Made by a program: the position numbers and the translations under genes. Positions 10,225 through 35,204 of a stretch of DNA of 51,799 bases are shown here, piece after piece (positions within the stretch are counted from its first letter, which is position 1; each line of letters starts with the position of its first letter). This stretch comes from an uncultured Planctomyces sp. (GTDB lineage Bacteria; Planctomycetota; Planctomycetia; Planctomycetales; Planctomycetaceae). Below the pieces are notes generated by a model. That model was not told the DNA's origin. It saw nothing but the letters and a program-made list of their open reading frames with translations, and did no database searches. Location: contig CALGTK010000200.1 of assembly GCA_937904325.1 (NCBI GenBank), positions 1 to 51,799 of the forward strand, in the 5' to 3' direction.

Positions 10225-10587
10225 ATCAGTCCTGGGCAACTCGCTTATCCTGATGCCGTGTGGTGTTCTTTTCCGAGCGGACAGGATCGCTGCTTCGAAA
10301 GGCATTGTCGTCGCGAATCGGGACGCTTTCTGAGCTCGATTTATCGAGAGGAAAATCTCACGTTGGATATCGCATTTCTCGTCAACTGAAACGCGATATT
10401 GACGGCGTTTTTCCAGCTACCATACGATCCACCCGCGAAAGCTTACGTCGTCAGGATGGCGACTTTGATGCGCAATGAATCTGGCGACATTTGTCAGGAA
10501 GTGTCCTGCTTGCAGGATTGGGCTGACAGTTCTTAGCCGCGGTGGATTCGTGTCTGAACTCGTACGAAGGGAATCGACAGAGTCAGC
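10225..10587. other. Intergenic stretch upstream of the glycosyltransferase operon
   Basis: No gene supported. A possible sigma-70 promoter is TTGACG (10399-10404), an 18-base spacer and TACGAT (10423-10428), about 160 bases upstream of the glycosyltransferase start. Confidence 0.3.
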
Positions 10588-14900: not shown

Positions 14901-15377
14901 ACATTGACCGTCGCTCCGCAGGACAACTCGTTCTTTGAGTACGGTCGAGTCGACTTTCAGATCGCCAACGAACAATTCAACTTCAGCTCTATCGATCTCG
15001 TTGGGTCGCCGATGCAGCTTCATGGAACCGGACGAGCCGGATTCGATGACTCACTCGACCTGACATTCGTGTCGGTGTTGCCGAATTCTCGAACTCGCAA
15101 GTCTCAGATCTGGATTCCCATCGTGACTGAAGTGGCGGGGCTTGTAGGCGGAGTGGCTAACCTTGTCGGAGTCGTCGTCGAAGTAACGGGCACAACGTCG
15201 AACCCGCGGACAAAGGTGATCCCGGCTAAGAATCTCGACGACGCGTTCAAGCAGTTCGTCAGGTCGCTGAAGCCGTTGCCGCTGACGCCACCTCTGCCAC
15301 CAGCATTTCCCCCGCTGGCATTTCCAGGCCAGCAACGCCGTACGCAACAGCCGTTGAAACGACAATCGCCCGGATGA
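11919..15377 (+). CDS. AsmA/TamB-like envelope protein (1152 residues)
   Basis: One N-terminal membrane anchor (IMWLLAILIVAIGLSGWAAHYY) is followed by a very long beta-rich periplasmic region. AsmA-like features are an anchor followed by IHVEQFSLTLP and LRLLQPQIEATRLPDGTWDF, and repeated 'L.G.a.v' units such as VSLVGTVQTEPNGDW. A C-terminal 'LTG.G.l...' type segment is DLTGRGQLQI, and near the end FVSVLPNSRTRKSQIWIPIV. AsmA-family proteins act as bridge-like lipid transporters or outer-membrane biogenesis factors between the two membranes. The proline-rich tail (LPLTPPLPPAFPPLAFPG) is unusual. The start overlaps the glycosyltransferase stop by one base, so the two are cotranslated. Confidence 0.8.
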   Translation: MKTLRRTIMWLLAILIVAIGLSGWAAHYYWKNADRLLHEKVAEVFRDWHPDLQFQLGQCRLDWSGQIHVEQFSLTLPQAERPLIDLPDTIVHLDREALLNRQEVVVQNLRLLQPQIEATRLPDGTWDFHELPPLPKSNKRQSLPTVDLQNAQLVLRIMKDDGAPPATVIVDNANLKLTPNGKRSLLIQGDAQVANIGQLELDGRINVDTKTGSLNGQLTEVGLDNKLLGYAASFEPSVTVQVAAVRQKLLDEMSKLPNPQAKSPFSIAGLANTSAFRPATFNNSNVEIQQASGSRTRAARGHSISPPMIGDRNSILGLLANLDIAFNVSVPVPGATPDVRILVDIKDGAVTNTALPFPLDNLTGQVEYADHLLTIRKLTAVNGPTEVDISGSILESDTGQSGQVNLKIKGLVCDERLRSRLSVGFGKIYDIHHPRGLLDMEVSVAATPGGNWTPQGLLVRANHVSIIHEIFPYPVKDAVGTIVQDGRDLRIDMAGRVGDRPITLKGFVQNPGPEAWVVFEIDVEDLPLDDNFYGALNSKMRAVLDSMNLGGFADAHVRLERKPGPGQKMVPSMTGYLKAGTMAFRSFPYRVENLTGKLQFDGRDWDFTSLRGTHGDALLSADGKYITSTGTSDLQLTVTTQEAQIDESLRIALPSHLKKLWQEFSPGGKIRRMVTDVRMIKGQPVRITLPEIQIDEGTANLRMFPYELAGIKANYAFADGILKINSFDGWHAGTSVSLVGTVQTEPNGDWRTTLSQWSARNLVNDASFQRALSPGLKSVFSTLGPDQTLNVAGFLELRGTQDPQFPITAAWEVATDLNKGTVSAGLDFTDVTGRIISTGTWNGYEADADGILDISSLKVFDNYSLYDVRGPFALKNGVFSAGSREALVPNGTDRPIDSSEQIQARFVGGVLSINSQATTSQPTDYLARINLSHGQLKRFSQLYVENRDRLEGVMNGWMTVQGKGAQPKDLTGRGQLQISPAALYELPVVFQVLNTLTVAPQDNSFFEYGRVDFQIANEQFNFSSIDLVGSPMQLHGTGRAGFDDSLDLTFVSVLPNSRTRKSQIWIPIVTEVAGLVGGVANLVGVVVEVTGTTSNPRTKVIPAKNLDDAFKQFVRSLKPLPLTPPLPPAFPPLAFPGQQRRTQQPLKRQSPG

Positions 15378-15410
15378 CACTCTGTCAGTGGACGATTGCG
15401 GAATCGCTGA

Positions 15411-15830
15411 CTACGACGAAAGCTCGTCGAGCGTTACCTGACTGGCCGTGATTTTTCCTGGTCCGTCGGCATTCAGCACGCCTCGTTGCAGCCGAAGCAC
15501 TGTCGACTGTTTCGCCTTTAGCGAGTTGGCGATGAACTGGCACGCGGCGTGCAAGTGTTGATCTGAGCCGCAAGTGAAGATGTCCACAGCGGCGTAGCAA
15601 TGTTCCGGCCAAGTATGGATCGAGAGGTGAGACTCGGCCAGTAGCCCGACAGCAGTCACGCCTTGCGGTTCAAACTGATTACTCACAATTTTGAGTAAGC
15701 TCAACTCGTATCGATCGGTCGTTTCTTTTAGCTGGTTACGGATCAGATCGTGGTCGTCCAGCAGACCCGCCGGGCAACCATGCAGGTCAACGATCCAGTG
15801 ATGTTCCAGTGTTTTTGGCTCGTCCGACAT
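15411..15830 (-). CDS. speD: S-adenosylmethionine decarboxylase proenzyme
   Basis: 139 residues, prokaryotic small-type AdoMet decarboxylase. The signature LLAESHLSIHTWPE contains the Glu66-Ser67 bond that is cleaved to make the pyruvoyl cofactor from the serine. The conserved His68 and the later Cys (VDIFTCGS) are present. It makes decarboxylated AdoMet, the aminopropyl donor for spermidine. It lies 52 bases downstream of folD on the same strand, probably in one transcript. It meets the AsmA-like gene tail-to-tail with a 33-base gap. Confidence 0.95.
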   Translation of the reverse strand: MSDEPKTLEHHWIVDLHGCPAGLLDDHDLIRNQLKETTDRYELSLLKIVSNQFEPQGVTAVGLLAESHLSIHTWPEHCYAAVDIFTCGSDQHLHAACQFIANSLKAKQSTVLRLQRGVLNADGPGKITASQVTLDELSS

Positions 15831-15882
15831 GGTGCAATCCAGGGATCCATCCAGCAGGCGATATGAAGCGAATTACTCAACA

Positions 15883-16755
15883 TCAGGACGACATGCCAAC
15901 GCTGAGTTGTGCAGCGGTCAGCGTATTCTGAAGCAGCATAGCGATGGTCATTGGCCCGGCGCCGCCCGGAACGGGAGTGATCGCCGAGGCCACTTCGGCA
16001 ACGGGTTCGTAGTCCACATCGCCAACCAGCTTGTTATCCACGCGGTTGATGCCGACGTCGATAATCACGGCTCCGGGTTTCACCATGTCGGCAGTAACAA
16101 ATCTCGGCTTCCCAATCGCCGCGACAATAATGTCGGCTTGCCGGGTAATCTCAGCCAGCCCTTCCGTACGGCTATGGCAGACCGTGACCGTTGCATTGGC
16201 AGTTTCGCCGCGTTGCAGGAGCATCATGGCCATTGGCTTGCCGACAATTTCGCTTCGGCCAAGTACGACAGCGTGAGCACCGGCAACCTGAGTTCCGGAA
16301 GTCAGTAATAACTGCTGGACTCCGTGCGGTGTGCAAGGCAGGAATCTTGGCCGGCCCTGGACCATCAACCCGACGTTCTCCGGATGAAAGCAGTCGACAT
16401 CTTTAAACGGCGTTACGGCGTCGAGGACGACTTGCTCTTTGATATGTTCGGGGAGCGGAAGTTGCACCAGAATTCCATGAACGGTCGGATCTTCGTTGAG
16501 CTGCGTAATGAGGGCCAGCAGGCCTTCTTCCGTGATCTCAGTCGGTAACCGATGAAGCGTGCTGCGGATCCCGGCCTTGTCGCAGGCACGTTGTTTATTT
16601 CGGACATAGACCGCGCTCGCTGAGTCTTCTCCGACCAGTAGTGCTGCAAGGTGAGGCTGCACGTTCGTTTGTTTGACGAACTTTGAGACATCCTTGGCAA
16701 GCGTTGTTCGCAGATCTGCAGCAACGGCTTTTCCATCGATGATCGTAGCAGCCAT
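15883..16755 (-). CDS. folD: Bifunctional methylenetetrahydrofolate dehydrogenase / methenyltetrahydrofolate cyclohydrolase
   Basis: 290 residues of the normal FolD length. Family motifs are SAVYVRNKQRACDKAGI (catalytic Tyr50 and Lys54), VHGILVQLPLP, KDVDCFHPENVG, the Rossmann motif VVLGRSEIVGKPMA and the near-C-terminal PVPGGAGPMT. It interconverts methylene-, methenyl- and formyl-tetrahydrofolate for one-carbon metabolism, using NADP(H). AAGGAG lies 8 bases before the ATG. Sits between an FHA protein (upstream) and speD (downstream), all on the minus strand. Confidence 0.97.
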   Translation of the reverse strand: MAATIIDGKAVAADLRTTLAKDVSKFVKQTNVQPHLAALLVGEDSASAVYVRNKQRACDKAGIRSTLHRLPTEITEEGLLALITQLNEDPTVHGILVQLPLPEHIKEQVVLDAVTPFKDVDCFHPENVGLMVQGRPRFLPCTPHGVQQLLLTSGTQVAGAHAVVLGRSEIVGKPMAMMLLQRGETANATVTVCHSRTEGLAEITRQADIIVAAIGKPRFVTADMVKPGAVIIDVGINRVDNKLVGDVDYEPVAEVASAITPVPGGAGPMTIAMLLQNTLTAAQLSVGMSS

Positions 16756-16873
16756 GTCCAGAGCTCCTTCGCGTCGCCTTCATAAACGTCCACTCAATTG
16801 AAATGAGAGTGGCGTGGCGACGGACTGTAGAGAATCGACCGGCTTCATCCCACTGACGGAGATACCTGATGCC

Positions 16874-17284
16874 TCAAAAAATACTGCCTGCACTAATGGG
16901 CTCGAAATTCGCGATAATCTCTTGCGGGTCGACCACAGTGGCTGCGTACATCAACTTCTGGGAAGCTACCGTAATGCGATCACCTGGGCGCAGCTTCTGG
17001 GTACGCTCGACTCGGTTGCCATTGACAAAGGTGCCGTTCGAGCTTCCCAGATCATCAACGTACCAATGGTCATTGAGCTTCCGGAAAACGCAGTGTTCAC
17101 GGCTGCAACGAACGTCTGAGATCACGACATCGTTATGGCCTTCACGTCCAACCGTCAGCTTTGTAGCGGCAAACAGCGGGAAAACGTCGCACCAGGCACC
17201 GTCTGTTTCCCCGACAATGAATCCTTCCTGAAGGACGGTATCGAGAGAGTCGTGTGGGTTTTGAATCACCATGGGTGAGTCCAT
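16874..17284 (-). CDS. FHA-domain protein
   Basis: A single forkhead-associated domain fills most of the protein. LTVGREGHNDVVISDVRCSR then EHC, and later LGSSNGTFVNGNRV, form the phosphothreonine-binding 'GR......D...SR.H' and 'D..S.NGT..NG' signature. FHA domains dock phosphothreonine-containing partners. The open frame reaches a TTG at 17416, but the extra 44 residues look non-coding and have no good ribosome-binding site, so the ATG at 17284 (137 residues) is preferred; the start remains uncertain. It lies 118 bases upstream of folD and 217 bases downstream of the giant-protein operon. Confidence 0.8.
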   Translation of the reverse strand: MDSPMVIQNPHDSLDTVLQEGFIVGETDGAWCDVFPLFAATKLTVGREGHNDVVISDVRCSREHCVFRKLNDHWYVDDLGSSNGTFVNGNRVERTQKLRPGDRITVASQKLMYAATVVDPQEIIANFEPISAGSIF

Positions 17285-17501
17285 CGGGATCGAGACGCTG
17301 CTACTGCAAATAGCTTTACAGGCGTCTCTAAATCTAGCTTGCAAACACGGCTGAGGAGTCGAAGTCTTCGGATTGCAGACATCGATCGACCTTCGATTGA
17401 CTGCTTCTATGGGCAAACAGGCATAACCGGCGCGTCACGGCACCTTTCGACAGAGGTGTCAGACAGAGGTGGAGGTAATTGATTCGTCAGCGGTCGCCAC
17501 T

Positions 17502-20500
17502 TCAAACTGTTCGGCCAGCCCGGACGAATTGCAAAGCCAAGGCGAGCAGCCCGACCAGAAAACCCACAAATCCCAACGCGTTAAAGCCGCTGGGCAGGAT
17601 CAGGAAGGTGAGCAGGCCACCGACAAACAGGATCCAGACTGCCGGGTGGAGAAGTTCGCGAGGCGTCGAGACTCGGCTGAAGGTCACGATCAGAGTCGCG
17701 GCAATGCCGAGCCAGACCAGCGTCCACACGAAGCCGACTCCCGTGTCGACAAGCTCTCGCGAACGAATTCGCAGTGCAAGTTTTGCTTCGCCACCGACTC
17801 GTGAAAAACTCAGAGATTGCTCGCCGGTTGGAATGTCGATCGGCAGGCTTAAGCCGCCAACTTTGTTCCATTTCGAAGTTGCGGCAGTTCCCGTGCCGCC
17901 ATCGAACATCTGTCCGTTGAGTCGTCCTTTGCTCTTATCGATGAGAGAATGTTCAACAGTCGGCATATCAGCAAGTTGCAAACTAAGCCCCGCCGCATCG
18001 TTTGCCTGCAAGGCCTCATCAGGACGTGGATTACCTGCAGGTGATTCGGTTCGCTCGCCACTTCCGACGCCGAAGTCTCTTCTACCGTCACTTCCAAACA
18101 TGGCCCCGCCGCTGTTCGGCAGGATGCCGTTGCTGTTCTGATCGACCGGAGCCTGGCCGTTGTTAAAGTCGACAAATGAGTTCAAGTTATCGATATTTGA
18201 AAGGCTCTGCTGCCGACGTATGACTCGCGTCCCGGCATTGAACCGTTCGATCTGTTTCTCCGCACTTTTCTTTGACTGTGCTGTCGTCGTCCGTGTCTGA
18301 GCAGTTTCGATGGAGAGGGCATAGCCGTTGATAGATTTGGAATCCTGTGTGAGGACCTGCGTGCCTTTGCTGCGAGTCGCAGCGTCAAACTCCGGAACGA
18401 TTCCAGGACCTGGGCCATCTACCATCGAACCTGGTGAAGCTGTCATCGAAGTTGGTGGAGTAACACTGACGGCACCATTTCCCACGATCAACGCAGAGTT
18501 GTTAGTCAGCACCTGCTGTCGCTGCGAGACGTCGTTCTGCTGTTCGAGATTGACCAGACCGTCGGCGCTGAAAAAGACATCATCAGGCGTGTTGGCGTAC
18601 AGTTCGATCTGATCGTTGTTGTCGACCAGTTGTTGTTCGACTTCGGAAATTTTCCGTTGCAGATCCGCGGATTCTTTGTCTGAACCCGAAAAACTTGAAC
18701 TGTCACGATAATTCTGTAGACCGCGTTCGATCTGCTTCAGATTATTGCTGGCTGCAACCTTCGATTTGCGGGTGTAACGCTTGCCGCTCACGATGGCCAG
18801 CATTTCCGATAAGTCGGAGAGTTGCGCTTTCAGATAAGCTTTCTGGCTTTCTGCATCGTTGCCTTGCACGACGTTTGTTCGGTTTGCTTCATCCAGAACG
18901 CTGTAGTCGACTCCTTTGGGCAGGTGAAGTGTCCAAAGCGTTCGTGCCACGGGAATTCCGAAGTCAGCACTCTTATTTGGTGTGACGACTTTGGGAGCGG
19001 GTATGTCGAGTTCGCTGCTGCGGAACGTGAACCCGCTGGGCAATGCAGATTCAAACTGTCCAGCACAAACGAGCTTAACCTGAAAGGAAACGTCCGAGTT
19101 GCTCGCCTTCGGAAGCGGCACTAGATGGACTACCTGGTCGTCCAGTTTGGTAATCACTGGCCGCGATGGTTGATCTTTCACGAACAGAGACAGCAGCCGA
19201 GACGCAGTCGGCAGACGGACTCCCAGAAACTGGCGGCGGCGATTTCTGATTGTGTAAACGGCCTGCCCACGCCATGTGCCGTCGGCGGCGATCGACAACG
19301 TTAAGTCAGCAACGTTCACTGACGCTGGCGCACCAGCCTGTTGCTCCAGGCGGTCAACAGACCACGATGGCAGTTTTGACTTGTCTTGAACGCGTAGCAG
19401 ATCTGCAGCCTGATCAAGCAGCGATTGACCGACGTTAATCGGAATGTCGGAAGCTGAGACGGATTCGTTCGATGATTCGTGACGGGATGACAATTGCATC
19501 TGCGACTGATTGATCAGCAGGACGTATTGCCGCTGAGTTTCCATTGGAGTGAAGCCGTCTGGGTCTCCGTATTCGTCGAATTTCGGGTCAAGAAATCCGA
19601 TGGCTGGTGTTTCTACTTTTTTCGTTGCAGGCGGGATTGTCGCCGTCGCGAGAACGAAGTATCGATTCTTTACTGCGTTTTGAAGGTGCAATGTCCAGCG
19701 GACCGATTCACCATCCGCTTCACTGACTACTTCGCGGATTGCTCCACCTGTAAACGCAAGTCGATCTTTCAGCCAAAGCGGTGTCGTGAACGTGAACTGG
19801 TCGACGGCCGCATCACTGATTTGCCAGTTTAACGCCAGTGAGTAATCAAGAAACGTGTCGCCGACCGATGTCATGACGACCGCGTCAGCGACGAGTCGTG
19901 AGGTCGCTCTGCCGACTTCGAAACCGATAACTTCGGCTTCGTCCGCGGTGGAACGAAATGCGTACTGCGCAGGCTTTGAATTCTGTTTACGTAATTCGAT
20001 CGGCACCTGCTGAGGATCGACAGCATTCCAGCCATTAGTAACGTCTGGTGAGGCTGCGTAAGCATTGTCGAACCAGACTCCGGCGTACGAAGTCGGCTTG
20101 CCAATTTCGAGCGGGAATGGGGGCGCAACTTCAACGAACAGGTCGTTGGGGAACTTCGTGATTTGAGAATCAAGGACGACTTCAACGTTCCCCAGTACTG
20201 GCTCGTTGAATTCGATCGTCAGTGTTCTGGGATTTGTGCTGTCCGATTCCGAGACGTACCAGTCGGACATCGATGTTGCGTTGACTTTGAGTATCAGCAG
20301 TTCTTCGGCCAGTTCGAATGTCAGGCCCGGCCGCGGAACACCCTTGAGTGAAGCCCGCATCAACGTGGCCATGTGAATTTTGCGGCGTGAAACCTGTATC
20401 GCGTGCTGAATTGTCGCTACAGATTCCTGCTGACGGCGGCCAAGGATCACCTGCAACCCGAACGGGCGACTCGCAAATCGCCAGGCCAGTCGGGTTGATG

Positions 20501-23500
20501 CTGAAGGCGACGTATCGACTGCAGGCAATGAAAGTTTCTGAGTCGAGTCAATTTGCGAGAGTCCAGAGACCTGTCCGCTCCGAACCTGAAAAGTTTCAGC
20601 AGCGAGGACGGCGACCAGACCGGTGTCTCGCGTGACATTCCGTGCCGCGATGACCGGGACATCCAATGTCTGTTCAGCGTCACCCTGCTTCGCATCGAGA
20701 AAGAGTTGAAGGTAGAGTGATGTTTCACTGGTCACTGCCGGGTTGAAGAAAACCCGCAACTGACGATTGCCTTCTTGCTCGTTCAGTTCCCAGCCGGCCA
20801 GATGCGGACCATCAATCTGTCGAACTCGAAGCTCGCCTGGCAGGTCAAACGATAGATCCGAGACGGCACCTTGAGGAACTTTGACGGAAACCTGCGTTGA
20901 TTCTGAGATGCCAACGTCGTCAATCACGACGGCAGTCGAACTATCGACATGGACGATCGAAGCGACGATGCCTTGCTGTTCGGGCGGTCGCCACGAAACT
21001 GTCAGCGGGCTGCCATCACCAACCGGAATTTCGATTGTTGCCGTTCCGTTGTCCGTTGCGCGGCGGTAGACGCTGGTTGAACCGTTGACTCGGACTTCCA
21101 GCCCTTCAGCCGGAAGGCGAAACACGACTCGCCCTGACGGGACGACTTTCAGCGGCAGCGTGAATTGTCCGACGGAACCATTAACCTGAGCGGGAACGGC
21201 GAACTTCACATCCAGCGTGTGCGGGCCTTTACTGCTCACGATGGCGTCGATGTGCTGCCCGGATTTGTCCGAGCGACTGACCAGTGTTGCGGGCTCACCG
21301 TCCAGCAGAGCTTCGCTCAGCGCAACCGTTCTGAATGGAATGGGCAGGCTGATCTGTCCATCCTGAAAACTGTGGATAATAAACGTCGCTGCAACTTCGA
21401 CCGCCGCGTTGCGATCATCAGACTTGACGAGCTGACAGTCGTAGAAAGCCGCGTCAATTTGACCTGTGGTCGGAGCCGGACTGCCAGGTTTCTGATCGGG
21501 ATTTGCCAGATTCCAGAGCTGGAGAAACTGGTCACGAGTCAGCAGGACGCGTTCGGCAGAGTCTGCCCCTGAATGGTAAGGAACAATGACTGAGTTCGCT
21601 GCAGGTTTAACTGGAGAAACGGTCGGTGCCGGTTCCGCAGCCAGTACGTCAGTCGAGTTGCCGAGCACGGCGGCGAAAATCAGCGCTGCAGTAGCTTCTT
21701 TACTTGCTTTGATATTAACTTCGCATCTTTTGAGAAGTTGTCCGGACGCCAGGCAATTCAGACCGGCTCGAATGATCCACAGGCTGACGGCGACGACCGA
21801 TCCCAGGAAGACACCATCCAGAATGGAATGGGTTTCGCCGGGAGCGACAGATACCAGCCCCAGTGGAATCGATATTCCGAGCACAGCCAGGATGGCTCGT
21901 GTTCGGATGGAAAGATTGATCATCAGCCAGAAGAACAAAGCAACGGCGGTCATCAGAGACACTCGCCCAAGATCAAGAGCGTCACGATCCTGCCAGGCAA
22001 CATCGATCCCGATACCAGATTCCGCTGTCCGGTTTCCTGCATACCGAAACTCGACTGACTGGCTGTCCTGCGGAACCTGCAGAGCTATCGACAACGACAG
22101 CAGCCCGGACATGCTTCGACCGCGTTTAGAAAATTGTCTGCCAGATACATCTTGCCCTGCCTGCTCACCGGGTTGCCCGGGCATCGCGTTTTGAAGAGCC
22201 AACTGGTTGGGTTGCGATTCTGATAAGCGATTGGTTGCGACGTCTTGTGGTTCGAATTTTTGGGCTGAAAGCTCGTTTCTGTCTCCGTCCATTGATTCCG
22301 CGGTTTCAGCCTCGACCTGTGCAACAGGTGTTTGGCCAGCGTCCTGCAGTTGGTGGGACAAAGAATCTTTTTTCTGTTCTTGTGAACCGGGCGACGTTTT
22401 CGCAACGGTCGAGGGCTTAGGAAGACGCGGTATCGCTTGGATCCTATTCATAATGGGGACTGAACGTTCCAGTTTGCTCTGTTCACCTCCCGCTGGTGCC
22501 TCTTCCGATTCGGCTGCAAATTCGATCAGCGAGCGGCCGTCATCGACCGTCATGTAAGAGCCGGCCGCACGAGAGCCAGTTACTACACGAGAGTCGGTTG
22601 CTACACGAGAGTCGGCTACAAACGTCGTCGACAACCAGATCAGCATCACGAAACCTGCGATCGATGCTCCGGCCCAACCGGCCAGACCGAAACCCAACCG
22701 TCGGAACGAAAGCGAGATTGCTCCGACAATGGCGAGTAGCGAGGCGGCAATGAATCCATGTTTTACAAGCGACGTTCGGTCGATCTGGGTGAACTGTTCT
22801 CGCAGACTTCCCAGCAGGCTGACTGAGTCAAGTGTGCTGGTCGGCGTAAAGTCTCCTGTGCTGGATGTGAGCATTGTTCCATTCGGGTAGTGCAACGTCC
22901 AACTTTGCTGTAGTGTCTCCAGGCGTTGCTCGGCACCTTCGCTGTGAATGACGGCAACCCCGGGCGGTGTTTGCTGGATTCTGCCTGCGTCGGTCAGCGT
23001 CGGACCAAACGTTCGGTAGAAGAGGACAAGCTTGTGTTGGCAGTCTGGTTCTCCGTCGGTCGGAACAGGCACAATGTAAACGCCGCCTGATGAGCGGACT
23101 TCAATCGGTTTGCCGTCGATCAAAGTCGACCAGAGTTCCGATGGTGAGGTTTCGGAAGACTCTGGTAGTCGAATCTGCAAGCTTTGAGCTCCGACGGCGA
23201 CAAACTGAAACTCTGCACGGTGCTGTACTTCGCCTGTGCGGCCAATGACTGAACGCAGTTTGTTCCGGTAGCAGACGGCGGTGGGCACGGCGACTCGATC
23301 AAATCGAGTTTCCGCCACAGCGACCGAGTGGCCTGGTACGTTGAAGCGGTAGGCACCGACGATTCGCTCACGTGGAGAGTAAAACGAAGGACCTGGGACA
23401 TCGATCGGGTCGACAGTCTGTAATGCAACACCGGCTGTGCTGTTGGTCAGTATTTCGAGTTGTTGGTCTGGTGAACCTTCAACGGCCACGTACCCGCTCA

Positions 23501-25634
23501 TTCGCTCGGCATCGGGGACCGTAATCACGTGAACGTCGTATTCGTTGGTTTCTGTTCGCGGAGTCGTCGCGTTAACAGATAGAACGACGTGTCCACTGAT
23601 CCTCTGGTCAAGATTGAGAGTCCATCGCCGGATTTCGTTTTCGACGTCACCTGGAAGTTGCTCAACGATACGAGCATTCGCTCCGGAAAGAGTGAACTGC
23701 AGATTCTCACCGGCAGACTCCGACAGACCGACGGTCAGCGTTCGTAGTCCGCCGCCAGAAATATCCAGTGTCGTCTGTAAATGTGATTGCAGCACTACCT
23801 GGTCGAGTCGCGTGAAAGTCAACGACTGAGCCGAAACTCGCGACGGCTTTCGCGAAACGGTCAGCAGGCCTTCGTAGTCGGACTGCTGAAAGAAAAACCG
23901 TAGTCGTTCGTTGATTGCAGTGGCTGGTGCAGGATCCAGGTTGAAAAAGTCCGTAGTTTTCAGTTCCAGATCGTCGCCGCCGCGAATGACGAACGTGCCT
24001 TCGACCAGCGATGCTTCCGGAATTTGAACGGTTGGCAGCGTGAACTCGGCGGTGTTTTCTTCGACAGGCCAGTCTTTGATTTCCTGGCTCGACATAAATC
24101 GGAACGAGAGTTCTTTACCTGGCGGGAGCGGTTTTTTCAGGGCGATGCGGTAGCTGTTGAACCCTTCTTCGCCAGGTATGACCTGCCACGGTAGCGAGCC
24201 GCCGTCGACTTCGATCAGTTCAACTCGCCATTCGGACGGCAGTTGAAACGTAACTTCGAACAACGGAGCAAAGTGACTTTCGACCTGTGTCGCTGCAGAG
24301 AATGTCACTCCGGTCGGAGCCAGATCGAGCAGTGACGTGACAGTGGCGTGAAGTTCCCGCTCGCGGGTCTTTGTTTCGAATGCCAGCTCAAAATCTTCCC
24401 GCCACACATCGAACGTTTGCTGGCCTGCTGAACCAGTGGCGGCGCGAGCACCGTCTGATTCTTCCAGGCGAAGACGCACTGCCGCTGGATGTTGAATCGT
24501 GACTCGGCCGACGTGCGAAGTGACGTTTCGAAGTGTCAGGTTCGGGACAGTCCAAGGTGTTCCGGTTTCGGTGGCCATGACTCCACGAAAAATCATGTCG
24601 CGGCCACCATCGAACGCCTGACGATAATTGAGTGCGATGAGCGTCGAATCCGGCGATTCCGGATTGTCAGTCAGTTCCCAGGACTCAAGACCCGTTGATT
24701 CGATATCTGTGATTTCAAGGCTGCTGGGGACCGTGCAGAGAATCTGATTATAAGTGGTGCCGAAAACCTGTAGATTCGTCTTCGCCTGCCAGGTGACTTC
24801 TCCCGGAGAGACATTCAAACCGTAGCCGGTTGAAGCAAAAGCCAGTGAGTCGGCTCGTTGCTCGCCCTGGTGATCGTTGAAGAAAAGTCTCAGGTTAGTG
24901 ACGCCGCCGACTGGAACCGAGTAGACCGCAGGTTCGGAAACCGACGACGGACGATCCAGAGCGTGTGCTCCGACGACGAGATGCCGATCGGCTGGAACTT
25001 CGACCTTGAGCGTTCCGGACGGAACGGAGATCAGCTGAAACGCGGCTGAGCGATCGTTGCCTGAAGCATGGAGCTGTGTCGATAGTTCAAGCTCCAGCGT
25101 CGCATTGCCAACCTGGTTGTGAAACAGTGTCAGGACCGACGCAGGCTTGCCTTTACCTTTGGCAGCGAGCGTGGTTCGTCCAAGCTTCGCCGGTTCACCA
25201 TTAACCGACGCCTTTTCAACAGACAGTTGCCCGAAGGGCAAGGCAAGCGTCGTCCAGCCAGTCTGAAACTGTCGGAAGCGGACCGTTGCTTTGATTAGAA
25301 GATGGTCGCCGGAAATGTTCGCCAGGTATTCGGCGTCAGAAACGACGACGCCCGCGGGCAATCGCGGAGCTGCTGCTTCGTTCGCCTGAGCCTTTGCGTA
25401 GAGAGCCTGAAACTCGTCGCGGCTCAACAGAACGCCTTCGTTGTCACCAGCCAAAACAACATCAAGGTCAGCGACCGGGACAAACGATTTCCGTTGAGGA
25501 AGTTTGCTGTCAGATAGCTGTTGGGCGATTGACGTTTGTGCACCAAAGCTTCCGGTAACAACCAGCAGCGCGATCAGCGCTCGCATGATTGTCCAATAGA
25601 AGTTCATGTGTGAATCAGTTCGGATTGAATTCAT
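17502..25634 (-). CDS. Giant membrane-anchored protein (2710 residues) with two tandem homologous modules
   Basis: The start is the ATG at 25634 with GGGAG 7 bases upstream, only 12 bases after the stop of the preceding giant gene. An N-terminal signal peptide (MRALIALLVVTGSFGAQTSI) is followed by module A, opening VLAGDNEGVLLSRDEFQALY. Hydrophobic helices lie around residues 952-1012 and 1220-1295. A second signal-like segment lies at about 1303-1330 (ATAALIFAAVLGNSTDVLAA). Module B follows from about 1345, opening SAERVLLTRDQFLQLW. A coiled-coil stretch lies at about 2250-2350 and a bundle of C-terminal helices at about 2632-2709. Both modules are beta-rich with recurring short segments such as 'ALLDGEPATL'/'ASVNGEPAKL'. 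No named family recognised. Likely envelope protein controlled by the linked ECF sigma factor. Confidence 0.8.
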   Translation of the reverse strand: MNSIRTDSHMNFYWTIMRALIALLVVTGSFGAQTSIAQQLSDSKLPQRKSFVPVADLDVVLAGDNEGVLLSRDEFQALYAKAQANEAAAPRLPAGVVVSDAEYLANISGDHLLIKATVRFRQFQTGWTTLALPFGQLSVEKASVNGEPAKLGRTTLAAKGKGKPASVLTLFHNQVGNATLELELSTQLHASGNDRSAAFQLISVPSGTLKVEVPADRHLVVGAHALDRPSSVSEPAVYSVPVGGVTNLRLFFNDHQGEQRADSLAFASTGYGLNVSPGEVTWQAKTNLQVFGTTYNQILCTVPSSLEITDIESTGLESWELTDNPESPDSTLIALNYRQAFDGGRDMIFRGVMATETGTPWTVPNLTLRNVTSHVGRVTIQHPAAVRLRLEESDGARAATGSAGQQTFDVWREDFELAFETKTRERELHATVTSLLDLAPTGVTFSAATQVESHFAPLFEVTFQLPSEWRVELIEVDGGSLPWQVIPGEEGFNSYRIALKKPLPPGKELSFRFMSSQEIKDWPVEENTAEFTLPTVQIPEASLVEGTFVIRGGDDLELKTTDFFNLDPAPATAINERLRFFFQQSDYEGLLTVSRKPSRVSAQSLTFTRLDQVVLQSHLQTTLDISGGGLRTLTVGLSESAGENLQFTLSGANARIVEQLPGDVENEIRRWTLNLDQRISGHVVLSVNATTPRTETNEYDVHVITVPDAERMSGYVAVEGSPDQQLEILTNSTAGVALQTVDPIDVPGPSFYSPRERIVGAYRFNVPGHSVAVAETRFDRVAVPTAVCYRNKLRSVIGRTGEVQHRAEFQFVAVGAQSLQIRLPESSETSPSELWSTLIDGKPIEVRSSGGVYIVPVPTDGEPDCQHKLVLFYRTFGPTLTDAGRIQQTPPGVAVIHSEGAEQRLETLQQSWTLHYPNGTMLTSSTGDFTPTSTLDSVSLLGSLREQFTQIDRTSLVKHGFIAASLLAIVGAISLSFRRLGFGLAGWAGASIAGFVMLIWLSTTFVADSRVATDSRVVTGSRAAGSYMTVDDGRSLIEFAAESEEAPAGGEQSKLERSVPIMNRIQAIPRLPKPSTVAKTSPGSQEQKKDSLSHQLQDAGQTPVAQVEAETAESMDGDRNELSAQKFEPQDVATNRLSESQPNQLALQNAMPGQPGEQAGQDVSGRQFSKRGRSMSGLLSLSIALQVPQDSQSVEFRYAGNRTAESGIGIDVAWQDRDALDLGRVSLMTAVALFFWLMINLSIRTRAILAVLGISIPLGLVSVAPGETHSILDGVFLGSVVAVSLWIIRAGLNCLASGQLLKRCEVNIKASKEATAALIFAAVLGNSTDVLAAEPAPTVSPVKPAANSVIVPYHSGADSAERVLLTRDQFLQLWNLANPDQKPGSPAPTTGQIDAAFYDCQLVKSDDRNAAVEVAATFIIHSFQDGQISLPIPFRTVALSEALLDGEPATLVSRSDKSGQHIDAIVSSKGPHTLDVKFAVPAQVNGSVGQFTLPLKVVPSGRVVFRLPAEGLEVRVNGSTSVYRRATDNGTATIEIPVGDGSPLTVSWRPPEQQGIVASIVHVDSSTAVVIDDVGISESTQVSVKVPQGAVSDLSFDLPGELRVRQIDGPHLAGWELNEQEGNRQLRVFFNPAVTSETSLYLQLFLDAKQGDAEQTLDVPVIAARNVTRDTGLVAVLAAETFQVRSGQVSGLSQIDSTQKLSLPAVDTSPSASTRLAWRFASRPFGLQVILGRRQQESVATIQHAIQVSRRKIHMATLMRASLKGVPRPGLTFELAEELLILKVNATSMSDWYVSESDSTNPRTLTIEFNEPVLGNVEVVLDSQITKFPNDLFVEVAPPFPLEIGKPTSYAGVWFDNAYAASPDVTNGWNAVDPQQVPIELRKQNSKPAQYAFRSTADEAEVIGFEVGRATSRLVADAVVMTSVGDTFLDYSLALNWQISDAAVDQFTFTTPLWLKDRLAFTGGAIREVVSEADGESVRWTLHLQNAVKNRYFVLATATIPPATKKVETPAIGFLDPKFDEYGDPDGFTPMETQRQYVLLINQSQMQLSSRHESSNESVSASDIPINVGQSLLDQAADLLRVQDKSKLPSWSVDRLEQQAGAPASVNVADLTLSIAADGTWRGQAVYTIRNRRRQFLGVRLPTASRLLSLFVKDQPSRPVITKLDDQVVHLVPLPKASNSDVSFQVKLVCAGQFESALPSGFTFRSSELDIPAPKVVTPNKSADFGIPVARTLWTLHLPKGVDYSVLDEANRTNVVQGNDAESQKAYLKAQLSDLSEMLAIVSGKRYTRKSKVAASNNLKQIERGLQNYRDSSSFSGSDKESADLQRKISEVEQQLVDNNDQIELYANTPDDVFFSADGLVNLEQQNDVSQRQQVLTNNSALIVGNGAVSVTPPTSMTASPGSMVDGPGPGIVPEFDAATRSKGTQVLTQDSKSINGYALSIETAQTRTTTAQSKKSAEKQIERFNAGTRVIRRQQSLSNIDNLNSFVDFNNGQAPVDQNSNGILPNSGGAMFGSDGRRDFGVGSGERTESPAGNPRPDEALQANDAAGLSLQLADMPTVEHSLIDKSKGRLNGQMFDGGTGTAATSKWNKVGGLSLPIDIPTGEQSLSFSRVGGEAKLALRIRSRELVDTGVGFVWTLVWLGIAATLIVTFSRVSTPRELLHPAVWILFVGGLLTFLILPSGFNALGFVGFLVGLLALALQFVRAGRTV

Positions 25635-25646
25635 GGGTAGGCTCCC

Positions 25647-28600
25647 TTAATTCCCGAACTGTTCACGAAGATCGTCAAAGACGCCCGGCGGCGGAATCAC
25701 AACGGGAAGCGTCGCTCCCACATTGGGGCCCGGCGGCGGCCCCTCGTCTGGCGATTCTGGTGACGAATTGCTGCCACCAGACTTCCACGAGAACACCGTG
25801 TGCAACACCCAGATACCAAACAGAGCATAGATGCCGAATCGTGCCGCGGAGATGACTTCCGCTGACCAGCCAGGCGAACTGAGTCCAAACAGAATGGAAG
25901 CGAATGCGGCGATCAGAATCAGCAGCAACTTCGTGTCCCACGAGAGATCCCGCAACAGAAGTGCGATGAGGAATAACGCTCCGCTGGCAAGCCACGCGTA
26001 ATGCGAGCGACTTGCGGCGGTTAAAGCGATTGAGTTTCTGGTGCCGAGACTACTGAATCGAAAACGGTTCCCCTCAGTGGGAAAATCAATGAAACCGGCC
26101 GTCGGAACTCCCACCCAGTTGTCAGGATTGAAATCGTCGATGTCATTGAGGCGACGGATGGCCAAGGCATCACGAAGCTTTAGCTTCGTTTCATGCGTAA
26201 ACCCTTCTGAGTCACCGACCAAATTGTAGTTTTCCGGTACCCAGATCACAGCTTGCAGTTGCTGCACCACCACTCCCGAATTCTCGATTCCACCGACCTG
26301 AGGCAGCCTCAACTCTGGTTTGCTAACCCACCCGTCAAATGGCGTTTTGACCGTGATTGGAGTCATCATTTGAAGCGTTAAAGAGAACAGATCGTCAGAT
26401 GAACCTGGCCTCGCAACATTCACGAAGTACGAATCCCAGCCCTCGACTTCCATTGGTTGAGCGTTCTTTTCGGGACTGACTTGTTGGCCATCGATAAAAA
26501 CGCCCAGCAATTCAGAACCGCCCGGCACGTCGACTCGCAGACGTTGACGTTCGCTCGATCGAATTCGGTATCGGCATCGGTAATTTGCCTGGGTATCCCG
26601 CCGTGTCACGACTTCGACAAGTGCTCGTGTAACGACTGTTTCGACGACTTTCTGAATCTCATGCTTCGTTGATTCAATGTGGAAGCCGACTGGTTGTTTG
26701 AAGTATCGATAAGCCAGTGAACCGGTTTGAGGCAGAAGCGACAACTCGCGGACATCAATCGCTTCCAGACTTTCATCGAGTGCCTTTGCACTGACCGACA
26801 AAGAACGATCTTTCTTGACGACGATCTCGCCGGAGACATTCGAGAGAGCGACCACACGTTGCTTTTCGTCGCTTCCGTCGAGGCCGAGGACACGGGCCGT
26901 CTGGAAGACGACATCCGATGATCCGGCGTCGGCTGCTGGTTCACCATCGCCGACTTCTGCGGCTCCTGCTGGCTTCGCGTCCCAGGCGAGTTTGAAACTG
27001 TGTGCACCGAGCACGTCTCGCTGCATTGTGATGGTCCAGGTGATCCAGCCATCGACCGCTTCTTCGGCCGGAACTTTCTGTTTGATCGCCGGTGCCGACG
27101 CGTTGCCAAGCGACGTTACCTGGAGACGTTCTGAGAACTCTTCAGGGACAGCAAAGCGGAAGATATCCAGGCCGGCGTACTGAACGAGATAACGCAACTC
27201 GGTGGAAACCTCGATGATTTCTTCTTTAACTTCGACCGTCGTTGCAATCTGAGCTGACAGTCTTGTCGGTCGACGTTTTGTTCTGAGCGGAATCTCAACC
27301 GGACGGCGATTGAACGACCATGCCGCAGCGACTCGTTTGCCGGATCGGCTTTGGCCAGGTCGAACTGGCAGCGGCTGAGCGGCTTCGATGCTTTCCTGGT
27401 CGGTGATTACTTCCAAAGCTTCCGGTGCCGTCACGTAGACCTCGGCAGTCTCCCGCTCGGTGCCCTGCGGTTCTGGAATCGGCAAAGAGAGTTCGAGCGA
27501 TTCTGACGCTTCTTCGAAACTCTGGTGCGCGGTCACTCGAAGACCGACCTGGACATCAACGCCCGTTTTCTTTTGCATGACGACTCGCAGAATTCGTGGA
27601 CTGTCGCCTTCGACATGAAACTCTCGAACGTTGTGTCCGGTTGTTGAGTCAACGCGGTCGACTTCGAGATCATCCGGAAGTGCGATTTTGAATTCAAAAA
27701 CTCCGGCACGTTCCACCTGGTAGCCCAGGTCTGCGGCGAGTTTCAGTTCGTCGTCGCCAAAGTCGAAGCGGTAGGATGATTTCACAACCAGCCGAGCTTC
27801 GACGGGCTTTGCCAGAACCTGCAGTTGTATATTGGAACTGTAGAATTTGAATGTTGCTGCTCCGGCCTGACGGATCGAAGCGTGAATCTCGGCGTCTTCA
27901 ATGCGGACTAAGCCGGTCACCTGTTCAAACTGCAGCGAAAGATCGCTGGCCCCGGCGACAGTCAGTTGTCCGGATTCGCGAACAGCGTCCACGGCGTGGA
28001 TGCCATTGTAATTCCCTTTGTCGTCCTGACCTGCAAGCTGGAGTGTGGTGGTGTCGAATTCCCGCTCGGTGTGAACTTCAATTGAGACTTTGTTTGTAGC
28101 CGGGCTGAGGAATTCGACTCGGACGGTTTGTCGTTGCTCGCCGGGTTCGGCACGCCAGCCGCGAATTTTCGCATCGCTCGACGAGACGCCAAGGATTCGA
28201 TGTCCGACCGGAACGGCGATCGCCAGTTCGGTCATCTCGCCGCGCAGGATGTCGTAGTTGAGGAAAACATCCGTGTGAACAAGGCCGTCTCGTAGCGTCA
28301 CTTTTTGATAATTCGTGACGGCAGCAAGCAGGTCCATGTCTGGCTTCTGGCTGGTCCGAGGATGCCAGCTTGCGGAAATCGTCGTCGTCGCGCCGAGGTT
28401 AGCTTTGACTCGCGTTTCGTTGCCTGCTGATTCAACAGGCATCGCGATCAGGTGTGGCTGCAAGTCGACGGTTTGATCAGCTTCGGGGATTGCCAGTTCG
28501 AAAGTAGTGACGCCAACGGCGGGAATACTAAAGTCGACCTGGCGACCGTCCGGGGATGTCTGAATGGGCGCTGCGAGTTCGATTTCGACCAGGTGCTCAC

Positions 28601-29222
28601 CGGCCTGCCCGAACAGCAGCGAGTAGGTACCATTGCCCGTTCCTTTCAGTAGAAGCTGCTTGCCATCTTCAGCAGTTAGTTTGCCAACGGCGGCATCGCC
28701 AAACTGAATCGGGACTTCGACCCACGGTTTGCCGAGAACCTGAACTTTCAAGCTCGCCTTAATCCGCAGCAACGAGCGATCGACCGTTGCCGTGTAGTGT
28801 GATTCTGTCACGACCGCTTCGACGATGTTTTTCGCAGGAAGCTGGTCGCCCTGCTGCCAGCGTTTGACGTACTCGGCGTACGGCATGAATACCGTCGAGC
28901 CATGTTTTTCGAAAACGTCTTTGAGATTCTTGTACGGCAGGTAGATCAACCGTTCCCAGTCCGCGTCAGCCCTCTCGGCGACTGCCGGTTCTGCAGTCGG
29001 AGGCGGTTCAGGGGTTGAAGTTGCTCCATCGGTTATTACTTCATCCTGAGCAGTGACTGGGGAATCAGCGAAACCGCTGACCAGGAAGATTGACAGAAAA
29101 GCGACGTTCAGGAGTCCTGATAATCGCGATCGGTGCGTCCTCGGAACATGTCCGACACTGTATTCGTCAGTCTGAAACCGCATATTTCGCAGAGATAATT
29201 TGCGAAGTAGCTTGAGACACAT
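25647..29222 (-). CDS. Large membrane-anchored protein (1191 residues), one copy of the same module
   Basis: The ATG at 29222 is chosen because AGGAA lies 8 bases upstream and a signal-like helix follows (LLNVAFLSIFLVSGFADSPV). The open frame extends to 29417, but without features. After an Ala/Pro/Glu linker the module opens around residues 90-120 with DVFEKHGSTVFMPYAEYVKR, corresponding to 'EGVLLSRDEFQALY' and 'ERVLLTRDQFLQLW' in the neighbouring 2710-residue protein. The long beta-rich ectodomain has LTAEDGKQLLLKG where the others have 'NGEPAKL' and 'DGEPATL'. Three hydrophobic helices near residues 1072-1145 anchor the C-terminus. No known family. The gene is cotranscribed with and probably translationally coupled to the next giant gene. 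Confidence 0.75.
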   Translation of the reverse strand: MCLKLLRKLSLRNMRFQTDEYSVGHVPRTHRSRLSGLLNVAFLSIFLVSGFADSPVTAQDEVITDGATSTPEPPPTAEPAVAERADADWERLIYLPYKNLKDVFEKHGSTVFMPYAEYVKRWQQGDQLPAKNIVEAVVTESHYTATVDRSLLRIKASLKVQVLGKPWVEVPIQFGDAAVGKLTAEDGKQLLLKGTGNGTYSLLFGQAGEHLVEIELAAPIQTSPDGRQVDFSIPAVGVTTFELAIPEADQTVDLQPHLIAMPVESAGNETRVKANLGATTTISASWHPRTSQKPDMDLLAAVTNYQKVTLRDGLVHTDVFLNYDILRGEMTELAIAVPVGHRILGVSSSDAKIRGWRAEPGEQRQTVRVEFLSPATNKVSIEVHTEREFDTTTLQLAGQDDKGNYNGIHAVDAVRESGQLTVAGASDLSLQFEQVTGLVRIEDAEIHASIRQAGAATFKFYSSNIQLQVLAKPVEARLVVKSSYRFDFGDDELKLAADLGYQVERAGVFEFKIALPDDLEVDRVDSTTGHNVREFHVEGDSPRILRVVMQKKTGVDVQVGLRVTAHQSFEEASESLELSLPIPEPQGTERETAEVYVTAPEALEVITDQESIEAAQPLPVRPGQSRSGKRVAAAWSFNRRPVEIPLRTKRRPTRLSAQIATTVEVKEEIIEVSTELRYLVQYAGLDIFRFAVPEEFSERLQVTSLGNASAPAIKQKVPAEEAVDGWITWTITMQRDVLGAHSFKLAWDAKPAGAAEVGDGEPAADAGSSDVVFQTARVLGLDGSDEKQRVVALSNVSGEIVVKKDRSLSVSAKALDESLEAIDVRELSLLPQTGSLAYRYFKQPVGFHIESTKHEIQKVVETVVTRALVEVVTRRDTQANYRCRYRIRSSERQRLRVDVPGGSELLGVFIDGQQVSPEKNAQPMEVEGWDSYFVNVARPGSSDDLFSLTLQMMTPITVKTPFDGWVSKPELRLPQVGGIENSGVVVQQLQAVIWVPENYNLVGDSEGFTHETKLKLRDALAIRRLNDIDDFNPDNWVGVPTAGFIDFPTEGNRFRFSSLGTRNSIALTAASRSHYAWLASGALFLIALLLRDLSWDTKLLLILIAAFASILFGLSSPGWSAEVISAARFGIYALFGIWVLHTVFSWKSGGSNSSPESPDEGPPPGPNVGATLPVVIPPPGVFDDLREQFGN

Positions 29223-29545
29223 AATCGAAGTTCCTGTAACACGGAAAGGAACGAGGCGGGTGTAGTGGGGAAAGTCACGCGGCAATGCTTCAGGCCCAAC
29301 GCGAACGACACGCCGTCTCGTAACTTCGATACGAACAAGCCGTTTCGGTAGTTTAGGATGAAGGTACCAACTGTGCCAATTAGATAGTCTTGGCTGTCCG
29401 TCCCTGGCATTCTCCACCTTAGAACTTAGGCTACGACGAGCCGAAGTGGAGAAAGTTTGCCGATTTTTCGGGATGTCTCAGATTAATTGCCTGATCGATC
29501 ACACCGGCTTTGATGGACTTTCGAACGGGTAACTTGCTGAGCCGC
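29223..29545. other. Gap between anti-sigma factor and first giant gene
   Basis: No gene supported. A possible hairpin pairs TCTCCAC and GTGGAGA (minus strand, about 29410-29460). A 100-codon minus-strand frame starting at an ATG at 29410 has AAGGTGGAG before it but overlaps the giant gene in another frame and looks unlike a protein. The length of the gap leaves room for a separate promoter for the giant genes, but I cannot point to one. Confidence 0.25.
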
Positions 29546-30373
29546 CTACGCCGCGGCGGTGCTGAGGTTTCGCTGGATTTGTTCCAGGTCGGCGGCGCTG
29601 CCGAGTACCAGGCAAACGTAAACCTGGTCGCCCTCTTGCCAGACGGCGGCGACCAGGCGGCGGCCATCAATCTGGATGTACCGCGAATCGGCCTGAGAAA
29701 AGCTGCCGGATTCGGGCGGCGGCGCGACTCGGCTGGCGGGGATCGCTGCGAGAATGCCGGTGACTGGAGCGTTCCTCGACGGCGAGTAACTGAAGATGGC
29801 AACCGCAGCGTCGTGGCCGGCCTCGTCGTCCAGATCGATTCCGCGAAATTCACGGCCAACTCGCAATCGAGGATTGGCGGTCCAGGGAGCCGGAAGTACC
29901 AGTTCAAAACCCGTGTCGAATTTCTCAGTTGCTGACAGGTCAATTGGTAAACGCTCGAGCAGCACAGCTTCGGTGAATTGAATCGGCGGAGATTGCCATA
30001 TCCAAGCTGAGACTCCCAGCATTAAGGCACACGACGCAGAAACGGCGACTTGCAACTTGCGTCGTCGAGCACTTGCTGCCGTTTCGTGTTCAATGGTGAC
30101 TTCAGTTATTGGTTTATCGGCGGCGGCAGGTACCTCGACGCTGGTCTCGCCAATCGATGTTTCAAGCAGAGACGAACGAAGGCCGTCAGGCACGTCAACA
30201 TTCTGCACTACGTTGGTCACTGCCCGGTCGAAACTCTGCATCTCAGCAAAGGATTGCTGACAGGTATCGCACGAGTTCAGATGCGCGCGAGCGTCGGCCA
30301 TTTCAGGCAGATCGAGATCGTCCGAATCCGTTCTGACGCAATCCAAAAGTTCAAGTACGTTCTGACAGTCCAT
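29546..30373 (-). CDS. Zinc-finger anti-sigma factor (membrane-spanning)
   Basis: 275 residues from the ATG at 30373; the frame extends to 30421 but the extension is poor. The N-terminal part has the H-x3-C-x2-C zinc-binding pattern of anti-sigma domains (HLNSCDTC, preceded by a paired Cys in MDCQNVLELLDC). A basic stretch (SARRRKL) and one transmembrane helix (VAVSASCALMLGVSAWIW) follow, then a periplasmic sensor-like domain. Such proteins bind the ECF sigma factor encoded next to them and release it on an envelope signal. The gene lies 116 bases downstream of that sigma gene. Confidence 0.85.
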   Translation of the reverse strand: MDCQNVLELLDCVRTDSDDLDLPEMADARAHLNSCDTCQQSFAEMQSFDRAVTNVVQNVDVPDGLRSSLLETSIGETSVEVPAAADKPITEVTIEHETAASARRRKLQVAVSASCALMLGVSAWIWQSPPIQFTEAVLLERLPIDLSATEKFDTGFELVLPAPWTANPRLRVGREFRGIDLDDEAGHDAAVAIFSYSPSRNAPVTGILAAIPASRVAPPPESGSFSQADSRYIQIDGRRLVAAVWQEGDQVYVCLVLGSAADLEQIQRNLSTAAA

Positions 30374-30489
30374 TGATTTGTTCCAAATTCGATGCTTCGT
30401 CCCCAGGCGGGCAGCTTCCACACATCGCAGTGCGGGAATCCTGAGAAAACGAAACTCGGAACTCTGTAATTATCAGTAACTAATTAAAT

Positions 30490-30984
30490 TCAGTAGCTTT
30501 CCGGGCTGATCCGTTCGCGAAGCTGCTTTTTTCCACGCGACAGGCGACTCATCACCGTGCCGATGGGAACGTCCAGTTGCTCAGCGATTTCCCGGTAACT
30601 CAACTCTCGAAAGTAAAACAGTAAAAGAACGGAACGAAATTCCTCGGGCAGCTCATTCAAAACCTGCTGCAGAGACTCGCTGTCGAGGGCCTGCTCAACC
30701 CGTTTGTCGCTGTCTCGTTTTTGGTCAATCGGATCGGCGAGCACTTCCAAGGCGAATTCTCCACGAGTCACCCTGTCGCGAATTCGTCGGCGGTAAAGGT
30801 TACGAACGATCATGAACAACCACGCTCGAACTTTGTCGGGGTCACGCAACGTGTCGAGTTTGCGTTGAGCATCCAGAAACGCCTGCTGCGAAATATCTTC
30901 CGCCTCATGTGACGTTCCTGAAAGCCGATATGCAAATCTGAATACCGGTTCGTAGTGCTGATCGACGAGTTGAGATATCTCCAC
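30490..30984 (-). CDS. ECF sigma-70 factor
   Basis: 164 residues. Region 2 includes VFRFAYRLSGTSHEAEDISQ and the 'D...W.F.IVRN..RR..R' core (AWLFMIVRNLYRRRIRD). Region 4 reads LNELPEEFRSVLLLFYFREL followed by SYREIAEQLDVPIGTVMSRL, the helix-turn-helix that binds the -35 element. Start is a GTG at 30984 with a weak ribosome-binding site. Upstream gene of a cluster with a zinc-finger anti-sigma factor and two giant envelope proteins, which are its probable targets through autoregulation. Confidence 0.93.
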   Translation of the reverse strand: MEISQLVDQHYEPVFRFAYRLSGTSHEAEDISQQAFLDAQRKLDTLRDPDKVRAWLFMIVRNLYRRRIRDRVTRGEFALEVLADPIDQKRDSDKRVEQALDSESLQQVLNELPEEFRSVLLLFYFRELSYREIAEQLDVPIGTVMSRLSRGKKQLRERISPESY

Positions 30985-34652: not shown

Positions 34653-35204
34653 ATGGAAGACACTCGAATGATCGAGTTGGTTCGACTGGCTCAGCACCAG
34701 GACCGGGAGGCTTTTGGCCGGTTGGTTGAAGCGTTTGAGCCTGCTGTTTACAGCATCACTTTGCGAAGACTGCGGGACGCTTCCGAGGCTCGGGAGCTGA
34801 CTCAGGAAATCTTCATCCGAGCGATGCGAAAGATCGGTCAGCTGCGTGAGCCGGAACGGTTTGCTGGCTGGCTCCGGCAGATCGCCGTGCGGATGGCGAT
34901 TAACCGGATCGTCCGACGTCCGAAGGAAGCACTGGTCGAGTCTGGAGTATTTGACAGCATTCAGTCGGACACGGTTTCACCTGTGGACAACGTGCTGAAG
35001 ACCGAGCAGGCCGAACTGGTCTGGTCGGGACTGACACGGCTGAAGGAGCTGGACCGTCATACCCTGGTCGCGTTCTACATCAACGGCCAGTCACTGCAGG
35101 AAATGAGCGACTCGTTCAGCAGCCCGATCGGAACGATCAAGCGGCGACTGCACACCGCTCGAAACCGACTGCGAGATGTGATGAGCAACTTTCAGCCCGT
35201 TTAG
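34653..35204 (+). CDS. ECF sigma-70 factor
   Basis: 183 residues. Region 2: AFGRLVEAFEPAVYSITLRR, ARELTQEIFIRAMRKIGQL and the 'W...IA.r.AiNR.R' element (GWLRQIAVRMAINRIVRR). Region 4: LDRHTLVAFYINGQSLQEMS followed by SPIGTIKRRLHTARNRLR, a helix-turn-helix. AGG is 9 bases before the ATG. No anti-sigma gene is adjacent, so it must be controlled another way, unlike the sigma factor at 30490-30984. A bidirectional terminator lies about 140 bases downstream. Confidence 0.92.
   Translation: MEDTRMIELVRLAQHQDREAFGRLVEAFEPAVYSITLRRLRDASEARELTQEIFIRAMRKIGQLREPERFAGWLRQIAVRMAINRIVRRPKEALVESGVFDSIQSDTVSPVDNVLKTEQAELVWSGLTRLKELDRHTLVAFYINGQSLQEMSDSFSSPIGTIKRRLHTARNRLRDVMSNFQPV

Follow-up and report, generated by a model that had tools for sequence, protein, structure and literature searches.

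The window analysed here, the whole stretch of 51,799 nt (forward strand, positions 1 to 51,799) of contig CALGTK010000200.1 in assembly GCA_937904325.1 from an uncultured Planctomyces sp., carries on its minus strand a row of four genes that encode an ECF sigma factor, an anti-sigma factor, and two giant proteins of 1191 and 2710 aa (Table 1). All four genes were recovered as the initial annotation had described them.

Table 1. Features of the sigma pair and the giant genes, in window positions.
Feature	Position	Strand	Evidence
2710-aa giant, in which M1a and M1b are fused	17502..25634	(-)	Two matches per module profile; separate genes in L073, L077, L127, L134
Module M1b, about residues 1325-2710	17505..21662	(-)	hhalign E 9.7e-87 to M2, E 1.6e-95 to M1a
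Segment resembling a signal peptide where M1a joins M1b (KASKEATAALIFAAVLGNSTDVLAAE)	21633..21710	(-)	Sequence; own signal-like segment in separate M1b genes elsewhere
Module M1a, about residues 41-1300	21735..25514	(-)	hhalign E 6.6e-84 to M2; AlphaFold2 pLDDT 81.9
Module M2, the 1191-aa giant, with a signal peptide, then an all-beta ectodomain and TM helices at the C-terminus	25647..29222	(-)	AlphaFold2 pLDDT 76.8; phylum-wide orthologues
Sigma70-like element TTGGCA-N18-TAAACT upstream of M2	29350..29379	(-)	Recurs in 16/41 M2 upstream regions
ECF-like putative promoter element preceding the giant genes, GCAAACTTTC-N12-CGTCGTA	29432..29460	(-)	10 related loci, match to 16-17/17 positions
Zinc-type anti-sigma factor, membrane-spanning	29546..30421	(-)	H-x3-C-x2-C, one TM; NCBIfam antisigma below cut-off
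ECF sigma factor, 164 aa, GTG start	30490..30984	(-)	Sigma70_r2 and Sigma70_r4_2 above Pfam cut-offs; family-wide orthologues paired with anti-sigma gene
Putative ECF promoter for sigma autoregulation, GGGAATA-N16-CATC, 36 nt ahead of the sigma start codon	31020..31046	(-)	Conserved in sigma orthologues

The sigma factor is short and contains sigma2 and sigma4 domains only (Sigma70_r2, E 9e-16; Sigma70_r4_2, E 1e-17), which places it among the ECF sigma factors. Its partner, with an H-x3-C-x2-C motif (HLNSCDTC), a single TM segment at residues 123-141, and a gene beside that of an ECF sigma factor, has the features of a ZAS protein, and its profile matches are weak, all of them falling below the respective cut-offs (DUF3379, 30.3 bits vs 33.2; zf-HC2, E 0.11; NCBIfam antisigma, E 9e-9). 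Orthologues of the anti-sigma factor occur in 34 of 59 relatives, nearly always in single copy, and in the 20 regions examined that contain its gene the sigma gene adjoins in every case except L112, whose sequence breaks off at the anti-sigma gene; the other neighbours of the pair vary. The M2 gene starts at the ATG at 29222; a longer 1256-aa ORF (GTG at 29417) was set aside as probably not the real gene, its extension lying directly behind the promoter-like element and carrying single-base indels in sister species, and a short ORF upstream of M2 was likewise rejected, the region having indels and stops in those species. The stretch of roughly 200 nt that separates the M2 ATG from the promoter-like element (29223-29430, minus strand) is strongly conserved in five sister species and apparently non-coding, and may be a long 5' UTR.

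The proposal that the giants are built from a module repeated three times proved well founded, as blastp and profile-profile alignment with hhalign both find homology among M2, M1a, and M1b. Pairwise blastp gave E values of 5e-11, 1e-12, and 8e-14 over 400-900 residues at about 20% identity, and hhalign aligned about 1000-1150 columns in each comparison (E values in Table 1), vs E 0.3-0.8 for an unrelated VWA anti-sigma control family. The opening motif that had been reported as common is conserved in all three modules in consensus alignments (in M2, 'ERLIYLPYKNLKxVFEKxxSTVFMPYxEYLKLW', with a related motif at the start of each module). The accompanying GEPA element stands in part: NGEPAKL and DGEPATL are equivalent, but VGDGEPAADAG of the 1191-aa protein does not lie at the equivalent position. 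Similarly, each copy does end in helices, as had been claimed, but these form a set of TM helices rather than a bundle, and in M1a and M1b they lie past long linkers. Each module also comprises internal repeats spaced about 170-190 columns apart (self-alignments, E 1e-12 to 1e-14; in M2, domains D2-D3 E 2.5e-9 and D3-D4 E 8e-8), and each starts with a signal or TM segment, continues as a long ectodomain, and closes with TM helices at the C-terminus, with a signal-like relic at residues 1309-1334 of the 2710-aa giant introducing M1b. The signal-like segments and TM helices bear out the envelope location suggested at the outset. Neither giant resembles a named family above a Pfam or NCBIfam cut-off, in agreement with the initial annotation, and Pfam searches of 37 M2 orthologues yielded no match above cut-off; no relatives were found in viral and plasmid collections, and none of the paper titles or abstracts that literature searches brought up describes these giants.

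AlphaFold2 models were made of two of the three modules, M2 (pTM 0.38) and M1a residues 41-1010 (pTM 0.45), and both are nearly all-beta with C-terminal helices. The nearest solved structures to both models, independently, are ribophorin I/Ost1, a non-catalytic OST subunit, through two-domain matches of Z 14.9 (M2) and 14.4 (M1a) at rmsd 22 and 15 A (range about 14-23 A), values at which the domain arrangement is not matched and which go with weak inter-domain geometry in the models. Single domains superpose on the N-domain of M1 aminopeptidases (LTA4H, ERAP1, PepN) with about 140-165 residues aligned at 2.7-4 A (for M2, Z 13.6 with 161 residues at 3.2 A; for M1a, Z 12.7 with 164 at 3.9 A), and this N-terminal beta-sandwich fold is recognizable in both; in M2, fold matches cover residues 133-289, 297-439, and 475-651. 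For these two modules, a fold in common with M1 N-domains and ribophorin I is supported at the level of predicted structure. Ost1 consists of two beta-sandwich domains, and its likeness to the giants lies in secreted or luminal tandem beta-sandwiches followed by a membrane anchor; the giant modules, however, have more domains (three matched in M2) and several TM helices. The M1 aminopeptidases differ in turn, as the giants lack HExxH and GxMEN, to which neither has a match, and present the fold as a tandem array in a membrane protein. Searches of a PDB sequence set with the M2 and M1a profiles returned no Ost1 or M1-peptidase chain and nothing else of relevance, and one paper reports that OST accessory subunits lack BLASTp relatives in bacteria and archaea (PMC4973528). 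Integrin matches in Foldseek were taken as generic beta-sandwich similarity.

M2-like loci were found in 38 of 59 sampled relatives and matches in 69 of 199 genomes sampled across the phylum, typically as pairs of about 1100-1300 aa and 2200-2900 aa; some near-complete family genomes (e.g., G012 and G018) gave no M2 match. Of the 35 named family loci that allow the test, 34 have M1 directly downstream of M2; two family genomes have different neighbours, L053, where an opposite-strand gene follows M2, and L059/L101, where the giant is elsewhere. In two family MAGs (L073 and L077) a stop codon divides M1a from M1b, whose gene then encodes a signal-like segment of its own. In two other families (L127 and L134) M2, M1a, and M1b are encoded separately, in that order, and every one of them has a signal-like N-terminus. 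Because M1a and M1b are separate genes in these four loci, the 2710-aa giant represents a fusion of two subunits, and fusion and gene order together suggest a three-subunit assembly. Judged by this distribution and gene order, the giant set is ancient. The same genome contains a second, diverged giant pair of 1187 and 2099 aa (system B; G000:C250 about 10357-20310, L041 5357-15310), in which homology to each of the three modules is evident (E 7e-67 to M2). In relatives, system B is often preceded by an inositol-monophosphatase-like gene; this gene, and a ParA-like gene found before some M2 genes, were considered as conserved partners and dismissed, their occurrence being local only.

Upstream of the sigma gene, the GGGAATA box is present in 20 of 22 orthologues (0.39 expected after shuffling) and both boxes, GGGAATA-N13..16-SATC, in 16 of 22 (0.03 expected), the pattern expected of ECF autoregulation. 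A resemblance to AAT-N-AGTCGT before sigma genes was rejected, as it occurs in only 4 of 22 (three of the same genus) and coincides in part with the GGGAATA box, which is conserved far better. Scanning the window's own genome yielded 12 sites of the sigma-type motif vs 0 for a reversed-pattern control, several of the 12 lying inside ORFs; GGGAATA-N15/16-SATC stands just before genes for a DUF2784 protein (L167, C21), a DUF4349-lipoprotein (L169, C111), and a VWA-lipoprotein (L172, C209), which are candidate members of the regulon of this sigma factor. The pair thus resembles class-I (zinc) anti-sigma/ECF sigma pairs both in its one-TM H-x3-C-x2-C anti-sigma factor beside the sigma gene and in the conserved motif before that gene, but differs in that its motif is not common to the giants downstream. 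The expectation of one ECF promoter motif for sigma and giants alike had to be abandoned, since none of the 41 regions upstream of giants contains GGGAATA-N-SATC, and the giant-type motif occurs before sigma genes at chance frequency (2 of 22 vs 1.7 expected).

The giants have upstream elements of their own. Their ECF-like element, with a fixed 12-nt spacer, is found in this genus and near relatives, and shuffles reach at least 14 of its 17 positions in 0.16% of cases; a looser AAY-N15..18-CGTC element precedes 26 of 41 family M2 genes (about 4 expected), and TTGG[CA]A-N16..19-TAAACT occurs in 16 of 41 M2 upstream regions (0.0 expected), all of these figures, like those for the sigma gene, referring to motifs found post hoc in related loci, with shuffling of dinucleotide blocks and upstream spans that hang on annotated starts. 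The conserved upstream block remains with M2 even where another ORF separates M2 from the anti-sigma gene, and the elements within it presumably work as promoters.

Comparison of gene order runs counter to the idea that one sigma/anti-sigma operon drives the giants. In 33 family loci the sequence extends more than 3 kb upstream of M2; the anti-sigma gene is there in only three, all of the same genus, and two of these have an ORF of about 850 aa between it and M2. The sigma pair and giants share strand and order in G000 and G003, and are linked with the intervening ORF in G001 and G005. Outside the genus, no anti-sigma orthologue was seen beside the giants; it lies on other contigs or, in complete genomes, megabases away (3.52 Mb vs 0.05 Mb in the single-contig genome G009, 4.70 vs 1.43 Mb in G006). 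The absence of linkage in relatives, which the initial annotation had named as a refuting result, is thus what is seen beyond the genus. The intervening ORF of the sister species carries PRiA4_ORF3 and SEC-C motifs (L046 1313-3892; L125 2022-4571; L124 1-1676, known only up to the contig end).

Taken together, these data favor, at a probability of about 0.6, a reading in which M2, M1a, and M1b form a non-catalytic envelope complex transcribed from its own promoters, with the sigma pair a separate system. The giants would supply three paralogous subunits (M1a and M1b being fused here) to a single conserved complex, each subunit exported and displaying in the periplasm a stack of repeated M1-N-domain/ribophorin-I type beta-sandwiches, and each anchored in the inner membrane by its C-terminal TM helices; complex formation is suggested by gene order and fusion, and the ectodomains would face the periplasm. 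As no M1 catalytic motif is present, a scaffold or binding role, in envelope architecture, adhesion, or surface assembly, appears most likely, a view that draws on genomic context and predicted fold. The giant operon would be transcribed from its own promoter region, and the sigma/anti-sigma pair would represent a self-regulated envelope-sensing unit that came to sit upstream of the giants in this genus. Because the pair is unlinked outside the genus and the giants lack its promoter motif, the sigma factor is probably their neighbor and not their controller. Transcription of the giants as part of the regulon of the adjacent sigma factor, once envelope stress makes the anti-sigma factor let go of it, is unlikely: the linkage kept within the genus and the ECF-like element before the giants speak for it, but the pair is unlinked in other genera, neither motif is shared between the two sets of genes, and the upstream block stays with M2 despite the intervening ORF.

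Control by some other ECF system, for which the giants might alternatively serve as ectodomain sensors, with different pairs recruited in different lineages, is rather unlikely, though less so than control by the adjacent sigma factor. In nine loci of distant families, a gene for a VWA/YfbK_C-type protein lies upstream of the giants at a distance of 0-330 bp. The N-terminus of several of these proteins is an anti-sigma-like zinc or one-TM region, and in at least five of the loci (L146, L147, L152, L154, and L163) the gene is preceded by one for an ECF sigma factor. They thus occupy the same position before a homologous giant operon as the window's anti-sigma factor, from which they differ by the large VWA/YfbK_C region fused on. 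Given this recurrent linkage, therefore, ECF control of the giants, or sensing through them, deserves consideration, and the AAY-N15..18-CGTC-like elements would fit it; nevertheless, no single ECF gene is conserved beside the giants, the distant VWA loci are phylogenetically clustered, and the ECF-like motifs, identified post hoc, share the M2 upstream region with a sigma70-like element. Function as oligosaccharyltransferase-like accessory proteins, or as degenerate peptidases acting on exported proteins, is very improbable: the best fold matches of two independent models point in that direction, but what they reveal is the non-catalytic N-domain fold, and the giants resemble none of the PDB chains of the OST/M1 families in sequence and have no conserved glycosylation or peptidase neighbor. 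It would be a long shot that this planctomycete-wide three-subunit envelope machine, made up of stacked ribophorin-I-like domains, is truly homologous to eukaryotic Ost1 or constitutes a periplasm-spanning structure of a new class.

The fold and the ECF pair are of known kinds, and the architecture, the phylum-wide occurrence, and the fused or split three-subunit layout lie outside Pfam and NCBIfam. About 4000 residues of coding capacity are thus spent on a conserved, unnamed envelope system across many planctomycete families, which offers a defined three-subunit target in the poorly understood planctomycete envelope, and the M1-N/ribophorin-I stack is structurally testable. The locus also illustrates clearly how neighboring genes can pass for one operon when one genome is viewed alone, yet come apart in a comparison of relatives. 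Elsewhere in the window, on the opposite strand, a further envelope gene encodes an AsmA/YhdP-like protein of 1152 aa near the giants (11919-15377, plus strand), and a second ECF sigma factor gene lies at 34653-35204 (plus strand).
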